A stretch of 64,000 bases of DNA, taken from the NCBI RefSeq assembly GCF_009193325.2, contig NZ_CP059856.1, positions 372,001-436,000 of the forward strand, in the 5' to 3' direction. Origin of the DNA: Bacteroides zhangwenhongii. Lineage in GTDB: Bacteria; Bacteroidota; Bacteroidia; Bacteroidales; Bacteroidaceae. Shown in pieces: positions 7,377 to 52,086 of the stretch; within the stretch, counting starts at the first letter, position 1; each line of letters opens with the position of its first letter. Made by a program: the position numbers and the translations under genes. The notes under the pieces were generated by a model, which saw only the letters and a program-made list of their open reading frames with translations, had not been told where the DNA came from and searched no databases.

Positions 7377-7654
7377 TATCTATCAATAAAGAAATTCTTC
7401 TCTACTAACGGAGAACTTTCTTCCCTTTTACTGCAAACTTCACTTGCCTTAGTTACAAACTATAAACGCAAGCTTTATTTTTATAAATGAAGGCTTTGTT
7501 CTTATAATTGAAAGCTTCATTTATAAAGACGAAAGCTCCGTTTATAGTTTACATCCAATCGACAGCAACTTTACTTCTAATGAGATGAAAATTTTGTCTT
7601 AATCAAGACGAAGTTTTCTATTCCTTAAATAGTAAGTGGTAATACTGCCCTGTA
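7377..7654. other. Intergenic region holding the 21-bp repeat array
   Basis: 278 bp between the Ig-repeat lipoprotein gene and the GH50-like gene, both on the minus strand. The middle holds the repeat array described separately (7458-7553). No open reading frame or clear promoter is visible. The gap is the longest inside the PUL 1 operon, so the downstream enzyme genes could be expressed at a different level from the SusC/SusD genes. Confidence 0.5.
7458..7553. repeat. Degenerate 21-bp tandem repeat array inside a larger inverted repeat
   Basis: Four units of exactly 21 bp start at 7470, 7491, 7512 and 7533. Each begins AAGCT or AGGCT and carries a TTATAA/TTATAG core. The array is bounded by a 12-bp inverted repeat, AAACTATAAACG (7458-7469) and CGTTTATAGTTT (7539-7550), and the middle also pairs (TTATAAATGAAGGCTTT with AAAGCTTCATTTATAA). 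The transcript could fold into a long, mostly A/U hairpin. Such A/T-rich arrays occur between genes in Bacteroides; the function is unknown. It might set the transcript ratio between the SusCD part and the enzyme part of the operon. Confidence 0.75.
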
Positions 7655-49141: not shown

Positions 49142-49364
49142 CTTTTGTGAACAATGATACAAACTGACCAATTTATATAAATTCTGATTCAATGAATCAT
49201 TTGTATACCATATATGAAACAAAATTGCACTTCTATTTTATCTTTCTGACTTATCTTTGCCACAGTAAAATCAAGCACAACGCACTATTATATTATTAAA
49301 GATTATGATTACAAGTAGAAAGGTTTCATTAGGTTTTAGGTTTACATATTAATTTGAAGGTTTT
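49142..49364. other. Left part of the island leader, with a tiny open frame
   Basis: A/T-rich DNA with a possible -7 box TATCTTTG (49252-49259) and no good -33 box. A 15-codon frame (49305-49352; MITSRKVSLGFRFTY) follows about 45 nt later. It may be a leader peptide, a relic of a lost gene or chance. Nothing else is visible here. Confidence 0.3.
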
Positions 49365-49480
49365 TATTGTCAGCTGACGTTTTTTCTTGAATAGCGCAAT
49401 GATTATCAACCGCTTACCTGCTGACAATAAGCCCTGACAATAGGCTGACAATAAGAAGCTAGAACTTCTATTGTCAGCCT
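49365..49480. repeat. Cluster of CTGACAATA repeats, left side of the VirE-like gene
   Basis: The 9-mer CTGACAATA occurs five times: direct at 49421, 49434 and 49445, and inverted (TATTGTCAG) at 49365 and 49469. The last direct and inverted copies form a hairpin, AGGCTGACAATA (49442-49453) to TATTGTCAGCCT (49469-49480), with an inner GAAG/CTTC pair. The first copy runs into the palindrome GTCAGCTGAC (49369-49378). The same word returns on the far side of the gene, so the pair of clusters frames it. Confidence 0.85.
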
Positions 49481-49517
49481 ATTCATTTATACTAATGCAC
49501 CGACATTGCCAACTTGT

Positions 49518-49693
49518 CACGGCCGTGGTGAGATCTTCCCACAGCCGTGGTAGGAACTCATCACAGACGTGGAGAGATCTCACCACGGCCGTGACAAACT
49601 AAAGACACCGATACCTTAGCGGAACTATATCGGCACACAAATGGAAATACATCCGTGTGATAGTGGAAGTATATCCGCTTCTTATCCTCCAAA
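49518..49693. repeat. Array of eight units with exact 22-bp period upstream of the VirE-like gene
   Basis: Units start at 49518, 49540, 49562, 49584, 49606, 49628, 49650 and 49672. The first four begin CACGGCCGTG, CACAGCCGTG, CACAGACGTG and CACGGCCGTG. The next begin CACCGATACC, TATCGGCACA, CATCCGTGTG and TATCCGCTTC. The first and fourth cores are perfect palindromes, and units 1-4 together form a 23-bp inverted repeat (TTGTCACGGCCGTGGTGAG with its complement). Twenty-two bp is about two helix turns, so every core would face the same side of the DNA. This looks like a cooperative protein-binding array rather than a CRISPR. It ends about 30 bp before the promoter. Confidence 0.8.
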
Positions 49694-49702
49694 AGCTTAT
49701 TC

Positions 49703-49716
49703 TTTATCATGATAAA
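49703..49716. promoter_or_regulatory. 14-bp palindrome, candidate operator
   Basis: TTTATCATGATAAA is a perfect palindrome just upstream of the -33 box of the VirE-like gene. Its place suggests an operator; the binding protein is unknown. Confidence 0.4.
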
Positions 49717-49726
49717 AGCCAAATAG

Positions 49727-49758
49727 CTTGTTTTACAAGTACCTTATCCGTACCTTTG
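49727..49758 (+). promoter_or_regulatory. Promoter of the VirE-like gene
   Basis: CTTG (49727-49730), a 20-nt spacer and TACCTTTG (49751-49758) match the Bacteroides consensus with one mismatch. The start codon is 50 nt after the -7 box. Confidence 0.6.
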
Positions 49759-49808
49759 AAACCTATAAACAAACACTTACAACTCTATAAAATTTAAGAT
49801 AAATAGAA

Positions 49809-51890
49809 ATGAAAATTACACAAATCAGGGAAAATGGAGATACGGAAGCATTAAGTGTGGTAAACATCGACCTGTTGATAGAGAAAATGAAAAGAGAGAC
49901 CAAGCTCCACCCGGTATCCGAACTACGCCAAGCCCTGCATTTTGTTCTACCCGACGAACCTTGTTCACTCACAAGCAAATTGCCGCGAGTGATTCCTGCC
50001 GCAGCTTTCGGGCGAGTGAACGGAGTGAGACAAATGAAAACCTACAATGGGATTGTAGAACTGACCGTCGGTCCGTTAGCCGGAAAAACAGAAGTGGAGA
50101 TTGTGAAGCAAAAGGCTGCCGAACTTCCTCAGACAATGCTGGCTTTCATGGGAGCAAGCGGCAAAAGTGTCAAGATATGGACTTGCTTCACCCGACCGGA
50201 CGGCACTTTGCCGCAAACAGCGGAAGAAGCCGAAGTGTTTCAAGCACATGCTTATCGACTAGCCATCAAATGTTATCAGCCTCAACTCCCTTTCAATATT
50301 CTGCTAAAAGAGCCGAAACTGGAACAGTTCTCACGTCTTAGCTATGATCCGGACTTGATTTATCGTCCCACCCCTGTTCCTTTCTATCTTTCACAGCCTA
50401 TCGGTATGCCCGGCGAGATGACTTATCATGAGAAATCGAGCACAGAAGCATCGCCATTGAATCGTGCCCTGCCGGGATATGATACGGAGGATACAGTGGC
50501 ACTGCTTTATGAAGCGGCATTGCGAAAGACCTTTGAAGAAATGGACCAAGCCTGGCATCGGGATGATGATTTGCAAATATTAATAGTCCCGCTTGCCGAG
50601 AACTGCTACTACTCAGGCATTCCGGAAGAGGAGGCAACCAGACGCACCATCATCCGTTATAACAAAAGAAAGAATCCAATGTTGGTACGTGAAATGATAA
50701 GAAACGTATATAAGGAATGTAAGGGAGTGCCGAAAAGCAACTGTCTGACCAAAGAGCAACGCCTTAGCCTGCAAATGGATGAATTTATGAACCGTCGTTA
50801 TGAGTTCCGTTACAATACGCAAATCGGGGAGGTGGAATACCGGGAGCGTTTCTCGTTCCGGTTCTATTTCCATCCCATCGACAAACGGGCACAAAACAGC
50901 ATTATGCTGGATGCGCAATCCGAAGGAATCGGAGTATGGGACAGGGACATAGACCGTTACTTGCACTCCAACCGTGTGCCTATCTATAATCCGTTGGAGG
51001 AGTTTCTGTTTCACCTGCCACATTGGGATGGAAAAGACCGTATCCATGCGTTAGCCAACAGGGTTCCCTGCAATAATCCGCATTGGGAATTACTTTTTCA
51101 TCGCTGGTTCCTTAATATGGTTTCGCATTGGAGGGGAGTAAATAAAATGTATGCCAATAGTACATCGCCTATATTAGTGGGAGCACAAGGAACTCATAAA
51201 TCTACTTTTTGCCGTGAAATGATTCCTCCTGCACTCCGGGCTTACTATACGGACAGTATTGATTTCAGCCAGAAACGGGATGCGGAACTGTATCTGAATC
51301 GTTTTGCGCTCATCAACATTGATGAGTTCGATCAGATTACGCTGACCCAACAGGGGTTTCTGAAACATATTCTCCAAAAACCGGTGGTCAACCTTCGAAA
51401 GCCACATGGCCGCTCGGTGCTTGAATTACAACGGTATGCTTCATTTATCGGTACAAGCAATCAGAAGGATTTGCTGACCGACCCTTCGGGGAGCCGTCGC
51501 TTTATCTGTATTGAAGTGACAGGAAACATCGACACTACACAGCCGATAGATTATGAACAGCTTTATGCGCAAGCCATGCACGAAATTTCTCATGGTGAGC
51601 GTTATTGGTTTAATAGTGAAGACGAGCAGATTATGACCGAGAACAACCGTGAGTTTGAACAAACACCGGCTATGATCCAACTGTTTTATCAATACTTTAG
51701 AGCTCCACAAGAGGGAGAGGAAGGAGAATTCTTTACTCCGGTAGAAATACTGAATTACTTGAAGAAGAAAAGCGGCATTTCATTGTCCGACAACAAAGTA
51801 TATCACTTCGGAAGAATGCTTCAAAAGTGCGGAATTGCCTCGAAACATACTTATAAAGGTACTGTATATCAGGTAGTAAAGATATTATAG
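49809..51890 (+). CDS. VirE/VapE-type P-loop ATPase with BT4734-like N-terminal domain
   Basis: A 693-residue protein. The N-terminal 200 residues resemble the VirE_N/BT4734-like domain (VRQMKTYNGIVELTVGPLAG, MLAFMGASGKSVKIWTCFTR, HAYRLAIKCYQPQLPFNILL), a primase-like fold. A middle linker follows. The C-terminal VapE-type ATPase has Walker A GAQGTHKST (residues 458-466), Walker B LINIDEFD (Asp505-Glu506), a sensor strand YASFIGTSNQKDLLTDPSGSRRFICIEV with a likely Arg finger, and a winged-helix-like tail (FFTPVEILNYLKKKSGISLSDN). Relatives occur in phages, satellites and genomic islands as replication primase-helicases. Here it stands alone between repeats, with no integrase beside it. Replicative or defence roles are both inference. 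Confidence 0.8.
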   Translation: MKITQIRENGDTEALSVVNIDLLIEKMKRETKLHPVSELRQALHFVLPDEPCSLTSKLPRVIPAAAFGRVNGVRQMKTYNGIVELTVGPLAGKTEVEIVKQKAAELPQTMLAFMGASGKSVKIWTCFTRPDGTLPQTAEEAEVFQAHAYRLAIKCYQPQLPFNILLKEPKLEQFSRLSYDPDLIYRPTPVPFYLSQPIGMPGEMTYHEKSSTEASPLNRALPGYDTEDTVALLYEAALRKTFEEMDQAWHRDDDLQILIVPLAENCYYSGIPEEEATRRTIIRYNKRKNPMLVREMIRNVYKECKGVPKSNCLTKEQRLSLQMDEFMNRRYEFRYNTQIGEVEYRERFSFRFYFHPIDKRAQNSIMLDAQSEGIGVWDRDIDRYLHSNRVPIYNPLEEFLFHLPHWDGKDRIHALANRVPCNNPHWELLFHRWFLNMVSHWRGVNKMYANSTSPILVGAQGTHKSTFCREMIPPALRAYYTDSIDFSQKRDAELYLNRFALINIDEFDQITLTQQGFLKHILQKPVVNLRKPHGRSVLELQRYASFIGTSNQKDLLTDPSGSRRFICIEVTGNIDTTQPIDYEQLYAQAMHEISHGERYWFNSEDEQIMTENNREFEQTPAMIQLFYQYFRAPQEGEEGEFFTPVEILNYLKKKSGISLSDNKVYHFGRMLQKCGIASKHTYKGTVYQVVKIL

Positions 51891-51902
51891 GATACAAAAG
51901 CA

Positions 51903-52017
51903 AGGCTGACAATAGAAGTTGATATCTTTTATTGTCAGCCTGTTTTCAGTGGCTATTGTCAGACACTATAGCATTGATATTCATCCGTTTAGATATTATA
52001 TTGACAATTTGACAATA
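51903..52017. repeat. CTGACAATA repeats, right side of the VirE-like gene, with terminator-like hairpin
   Basis: AGGCTGACAATA (51903-51914) and TATTGTCAGCCT (51930-51941) form a hairpin 13 nt after the stop codon, using the same 12-bp arms as the hairpin left of the gene. Another inverted copy lies at 51954-51962, and degenerate copies TTGACAATT (52001) and TTGACAATA (52009) follow. The hairpin is followed by TGTTTTC and could end the transcript. Confidence 0.85.
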
Positions 52018-52086
52018 AAACAGGTACAAATCACTGTGAGATCTAAATTTGATATTTTTGTTTCATAGATGAATAGAGAGTATCTC

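Follow-up and report, generated by a model that had tools for sequence, protein, structure and literature searches.

An array of 22-bp units in exact phase precedes a gene for a BT4734/VapE-type initiator helicase in Bacteroides, array and gene lie between inverted ends, and gene-less copies of the array, some of them with such ends, are dispersed over the chromosome. We lean towards reading this unit as a chromosomal element whose initiator helicase reads its own iteron-like array between inverted ends, and whose gene-less copies are recognized in trans. The locus was found in a window of 64,000 nucleotides, meaning here the whole analyzed stretch. The genome it comes from measures 5.32 Mb and is close to Bacteroides finegoldii (97% to NZ_OY725909; L015).

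Phased array upstream of the helicase gene

The following features were delimited in the window:

7461..7551, no strand: second array, gene-less, 21-bp units, another family (Tandem Repeats Finder 7461-7537, period 21; right edge by eye)
49355..49488, plus strand: left terminal inverted repeat (T module), with CTGACAATA words in both orientations and two potential hairpins
49496..49517, no strand: weak unit -1, position conserved across oriented sister arrays
49518..49605, no strand: the four strong units of 22 bp, whose core CAYRGCYGTG is palindromic (one core off by one base), with oriented linkers
49606..49693, no strand: four weak units in the same phase, 50% match at lag 22, sister-array information above background to about units 5-6
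49809..51890, plus strand: gene for a 693-aa protein with a BT4734-like N-terminal domain (motif I acids absent), a VapE/SF3-type helicase and a DUF3874 C-terminal domain
51894..52029, minus strand: right terminal inverted repeat, inverted match to the left copy and profile match

An earlier, sequence-only reading had described eight units at 49518 + 22n in exact 22-bp phase, two perfectly palindromic cores, a long inverted repeat over the first four units, and later units that drift yet keep the phase; all of this was confirmed. The perfect palindromes are the cores of units 1 and 4 (both CACGGCCGTG), units 2 and 3 having CACAGCCGTG and CACAGACGTG, and the inverted repeat pairs 49514-49549 with 49562-49597 (36 nt, 86%). 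Within the drifting units 5-8 by themselves, the match is 50% at lag 22 and again at lag 44, whereas the remaining lags between 10 and 43 give 11-40%. The best run of 66 columns within 49400-49808 has 45 matching columns at lag 22, a score reached by none of 1000 dinucleotide shuffles (best over lags 15-30: mean 28.9, maximum 38). Tandem Repeats Finder reports the strong part alone (49518-49593, period 22).

The sister arrays listed for this family have four strong units with weaker phased units on both sides, opposite in direction. Across 16 arrays that can be oriented against each other, including two orthologous pairs, each of the four strong units carries 24-26 bits of information, which declines to background across roughly four units to the left and right. 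The second array of the window, at 7460, outscores the one at 49518 (lag 21, 48/66). It is located between two genes of another locus, and by eye it resembles the gene-linked 21-bp array L287 of G021.

A transcribed structured RNA would be another way to explain the array, and the segment 49430-49700, which includes the left-end hairpin, folds far better than its shuffles (z -11.2). Against this, complementarity is 0.623 within arrays and 0.683 between them (15 arrays), a deficit explained by the oriented linkers. In a set of 5 arrays the values are 0.668 within and 0.664 across, only two weak-unit pairs being slightly higher (p 0.03 and 0.016), and no Rfam family scored above its cut-off at any array. 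For all the strong folding of the window copy, complementarity specific to an array does not exceed cross-array pairing, and we rejected the RNA explanation as highly improbable.

The encoded protein

The Pfam scan of the window protein found BT4734-like_N, VapE-like, DUF3874 and DUF5906 and nothing else, with no Y1 HUH transposase. The Walker motifs of its VapE/SF3 initiator-type helicase are intact; G458, G461, KST (464-466) and LINIDEFDQ (501-509) are invariant over 25 aligned sequences, as is D180. An excerpt of PMC5862659 counts BT4734-like proteins among the archaeo-eukaryotic primases. The window protein has the PF08800 domain in common with them, but the acids of their motif I are not conserved in it: T86 and G88 stand instead at the inferred motif position. 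Relatives vary at these residues (E/E, E/N, K/D and others), and the primase motif of the window protein looks degenerate. We take the motif position to be given by the pattern quoted in PMC5862659.

In a predicted model (mean pLDDT 79.7, pTM 0.46, hence an uncertain placement of domains) the C-terminus appears winged-helix-like by the order of its helices and strands. The best match to a solved fold is PriRep1 with dsDNA (E 3.3e-15), followed by NrS-1, ASFV PrimPol and MPXV E5; the PrimPol model was the sole PADLOC match.

Phased arrays across the BT4734/VapE gene family

We fetched 79 loci of the BT4734/VapE family by protein similarity alone, some of them close kin and not independent, and left out five with less than 300 bp upstream. 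Of the 74 usable loci, 50 have lag 22 as their best upstream period (lags 12-44, N excluded), the next being lag 43 with 5 loci; in 24 loci the best lag is not 22. We also counted clusters of lagged identity in the 900 bp upstream: 84 at lag 22, 48 at lag 44 and 14-19 at the other lags from 9 to 43. In every lag row listed, 14 of the clusters come from a single locus, L071, an N run. The units differ between loci (CACGTACGTG, GAAACTATAGTTTC, CACTATTGTG, AAACAACTGTTT and others), with a wide range of palindromic cores, and the R1 profile matches only 3 of the 79 loci; thus, the period outlives the sequence. Among 20 further genes from G021, G036 and G045 the best lag is 22 in 7, 23 in 5, 21 in 3 and another in 5. 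The window genome has six homologs, three with a 22-bp array and three with none. These observations support phased arrays as a common partner of the BT4734/VapE gene family.

In most loci listed, the array lies about 150-550 bp upstream of the gene. This position would suit an array that is only an operator by which the helicase gene is autoregulated, the gene-less arrays being decayed loci that have lost the gene. We consider that explanation unlikely, on evidence that is given with the gene-less copies below.

Inverted ends

The window gene and its array are enclosed by inverted copies of a module of about 135 bp made of CTGACAATA words. This word occurs nine times in the window, eight of them inside the element (0.68 expected). 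The left and the downstream end match in inverted orientation over 82 bp (73%); the left end also matches the end profile, of which it is itself a part. The stretch 49355-52029 has no other long ORF than that of the helicase and, as judged by the ORF list alone, no integrase of an excising element. A possible short leader ORF (MITSRKVSLGFRFTY, 49305-49352) directly before the left end was discarded as a candidate: among the loci compared, its peptide pattern matched copies of the window's own locus only.

Flanks were compared for 65 of the 79 loci, of which 62 were usable. At a threshold of at least 50 bits, upstream and downstream flanks match in inverted orientation in 33/62 loci and in direct orientation in none, the corresponding numbers for unrelated pairs being 38 and 0 of 3540. 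At 30 bits or more, 36/62 loci have inverted and 12/62 direct matches (unrelated pairs: 94/3540 and 22/3540); direct matches at 35 bits are found in 4/62. The inverted ends are 38-129 bp long, mostly 93-129 bp (17/59 loci with lengths listed). Two loci below 30 bits, L015 and L036, have the left end further upstream, with other ORFs between it and the array, and the profile detects both ends in each.

Dispersed arrays in the genome and the genus

With a two-unit pattern and up to three mismatches allowed, the window genome has 16 matches on one strand and 20 on the other (reversed control: 1 and 0), all within six arrays bar three isolated weak ones. A search with a profile built on sequence alone found the same six arrays at 93-106 bits and three weaker ones at 28-37 bits; a doubtful match at 3658657 (14 bits) was dropped, having no 22-bp array. 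One of the six arrays adjoins the gene; the remaining five occupy intergenic sites next to unrelated genes in convergent, divergent or tandem arrangement, and no BT4734/VapE-type gene is among their nearest ORFs. A three-unit pattern is present in 14 of the 60 genomes of the genus survey (controls: 0 in all 60), with several variant cores among the 14, some of which, e.g. in G005, are perhaps unrelated. The profile, under stricter filters, is found in 19/60 genomes, all among the 36 of the genus and none among the 24 from other families.

Dispersal of the arrays is clear; those without the gene are scattered relatives, and some of them carry the inverted ends of the element. The sequence-only reading had suggested a replication origin with iterons or a repressor array, and had named a wide occurrence of the array without the gene as a refutation. 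Array and gene do not always go together: five of the six arrays in the window genome have no such gene nearby, and 14 genomes match the three-unit pattern. In its simple form the origin reading therefore does not hold. What does find support is that phased arrays commonly partner the gene family and that the protein is of the replication-initiator helicase type.

The sites of the arrays are often common to different species, so any movement is not recent. At the A4 site in three genomes, the array columns align with 0-2 gaps and a core identity of 0.82-0.95; outside the array, identity is 0.53-0.64 with 64-148 gap columns. Cores and linkers of L157/L163 are identical at 0.90 and 0.40, respectively. 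Other pairs align less cleanly: L044/L168 have 2 gaps in linkers and 22 in weak units, the weak units of L160/L036 and L160/L015 have 22 and 15, whereas L044/L129 are identical.

Conserved intergenic sites in two-turn phase, common to several species, could be host sites for a chromosome-structuring or nucleoid protein, where helicase genes and inverted ends merely gather; by eye, HU-like genes stand beside A4, L044 and L168. However, the cores vary by family, and one host protein would not need many, and a gene-linked core recurs in dispersed copies of the same genome (G000, G021), so we judge host sites quite improbable.

Several further observations concern individual sites. HU-like DNA-binding genes, named by eye from sequence, adjoin the arrays L123, L164, L165, L044 and L168. 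Matches to the FopS sRNA family (Rfam RF04319) lie near one conserved array site (L157 2335-2401, L163 79-145). The same 397-aa transposase-like ORF, presumably ISAs1-like, is seen by eye at array units -2/5 of L015 and L158, two different loci, and the array may be a target of this ORF. We had considered L015 as a chimera of L158 and L160 formed by array recombination, and dropped this because the shared flank is that ORF and hence, by eye, an insertion sequence that sits at one and the same point of the array. The profile of the window family (family 1) has 60 matches in G045, both strands counted. This draft genome has perhaps 30 arrays (e.g. L227-L237) with a core near TTGCYACGGCCGTRGCAA, and its BT4734 genes mostly have 23-bp arrays. 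A cognate gene was not found in it: five of its seven genes have a best lag of 23, and one has a 22-bp array with another unit.

Gene-less copies with ends in three repeat families

Gene-less copies in the order end, array, end were seen in three repeat families. In family 1 (CACGGCCGTG), L161 of G021 has both ends round the array in 638 bp, and one of these ends is not in the profile. A single end is found at A2, A3, A5 and L159, all of which are in the profile, and the profile detected no ends at A4, A6, L157, L158, L163, L164, L167, L173 and L176.

Family 2 (TTATCA-N4-TGATAA) includes the array at a truncated gene at 1090937 (E1090, 434 aa). Two gene-less arrays, at 4464417 (L224) and 730102 (L225), have the E1090 core, and both of their sides match its downstream end, weakly at the right end of L225 (E 0.005). 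The E1090 gene copy has no pair of ends.

Family 3 (CACTAGAGTG) was predicted from the core of the gene-linked L288, a gene with this core being shown only in G021. The core recurs as 22-bp arrays in 6/6 genomes with 9-22 matches per strand (reversed-pattern control: 0 in all six); the copies in G012 were known beforehand, so the other genomes alone test the prediction, and none of the positions among the matches listed is from G000. Some of the matches belong to a CACTATAGTG group. Among 14 arrays fetched, inverted ends (157-186 bp, 70-83%) are present in 5/10 of the CACTAGAGTG group and 0/4 of the CACTATAGTG group. The gene-less copies with both ends are L386, L388, L397, L398 and L399; their ends have the words ATTTCTCAT and ATGAGAA in common, and their outer flanks are unrelated by eye. 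Single-end likeness was observed in L387, L389, L394, L396, L242 and L243, and L288 itself has a likeness over 40 bp in place of an end pair.

The repeats of the gene thus have cognate, gene-less counterparts dispersed in the genome. E232 is an exception: it has an array, but the pattern used found no dispersed copies of it in its own genome. In families 2 and 3 the copies with a gene make poor masters, E1090 being truncated and both E1090 and L288 being without an end pair.

These copies bear on the operator explanation in both directions. Gene loss would fit the E1090 gene, cut to 434 aa, and L044 (array and gene) and L168 (array alone), which have a left flank in common (74%). On the other hand, copies of 638-813 bp from end to end, three in G021 and three in G110, cannot hold the gene, the flanks of the compact copies are unrelated by eye, and array cores are still alike at gene-less orthologous sites. 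The missing end pairs of the gene copies in families 2 and 3, and a best lag of 22 in only 7 of the 20 further genes, slightly weaken our preferred reading of an element with an initiator helicase, as well as the bolder one set out below, and slightly strengthen the operator.

Mobility

The site of L161 holds the element in G021 and, in G151, a copy broken by other ORFs that are transposase-like by eye. No end or array is present at this site in G000, G012, G110, G115 and G053 (both flanks) or in G030 and G128 (one flank). Flank searches for an empty site gave presence or absence and no clean junction, the L161-site spacer being too diverged. No target-site duplication was seen by eye at 11 elements in one comparison or at 5 in another, their exact ends being uncertain, and neither the ORF list nor the Pfam scan shows a transposase in the gene-bearing window copy. 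The gene stands between other ORFs in two short phage-labelled contigs, and a scan of viral contigs gave 3 relatives.

Gene, array and gene-less copies may together form an undescribed kind of mobile or replicating element; a literature search, with most subscription journals outside its reach, found no description of these arrays. A bolder and rather doubtful possibility is that they are bacterial transposable elements moved by replication: the helicase would open the DNA at its array, and whatever the ends enclose, gene included or not, would be copied and re-inserted without a transposase or recombinase of its own. Each family would then have its own array core and end words and, in some genome of the species, a master copy that holds the gene.

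Proposed function and relation to known systems

In the proposed element, two inverted ends enclose first the phased array and then the initiator-helicase gene. The array is best read as the iteron-like site of the encoded initiator helicase, its units most likely being cognate binding sites (iterons) of the BT4734/VapE protein. We infer binding, unwinding, replication and mobility from this arrangement as follows. The winged-helix-like C-terminal domain would read the array, and a helicase hexamer would assemble there and open the DNA; perhaps the array also regulates the gene, as with other iteron Reps. Gene-less copies with both ends, or their remnants, would be non-autonomous derivatives recognized in trans by the cognate helicase. 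Each BT4734/VapE protein would read its own array, as the initiator helicases of SaPI and SCCmec do.

In SaPI Rep and SCCmec Cch2 the C-terminal domain binds short repeats beside the gene (PMC7581432, in excerpt). These systems likewise join a VapE/D5-type helicase to adjoining repeats; here, however, the array is upstream rather than downstream, only the helicase ORF stands out between the window's ends (L015 and L036 have others), and gene-less copies with inverted ends are dispersed on the chromosome.

REPIN/RAYT systems, as portrayed in parts of PMC3733652, combine a single gene that has palindromic repeats on either side with further repeats dispersed without a gene; there are several families per genome, and some RAYT genes have TIRs. 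The same source gives their repeats as hairpins of 20-40 nt with a GTAG or CGTC tag. As far as this partial account goes, the window element follows the same logic of dispersal, with gene-less repeats around one gene, but it has a helicase where RAYT is a Y1 HUH tyrosine transposase, and its repeats are 22-bp phased arrays. The short gene-less copies with both inverted ends are like MITEs; they differ in that the copy with the gene lacks a transposase, that by eye no target duplication was observed and that an internal array is kept.

We know of no role for BT4734-like (VirE N-terminal) genes that stand alone. Such genes are over-represented in the human gut microbiome, according to an excerpt of PMC2880560, and they now gain a DNA site that is likely to be cognate, ends that define the element and families of copies without the gene, so that binding, replication and mobility of these units become directly testable. 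Should the units move, a helicase would be moving DNA with no transposase involved; should they not move, they would be an undescribed set of chromosomal initiator sites.
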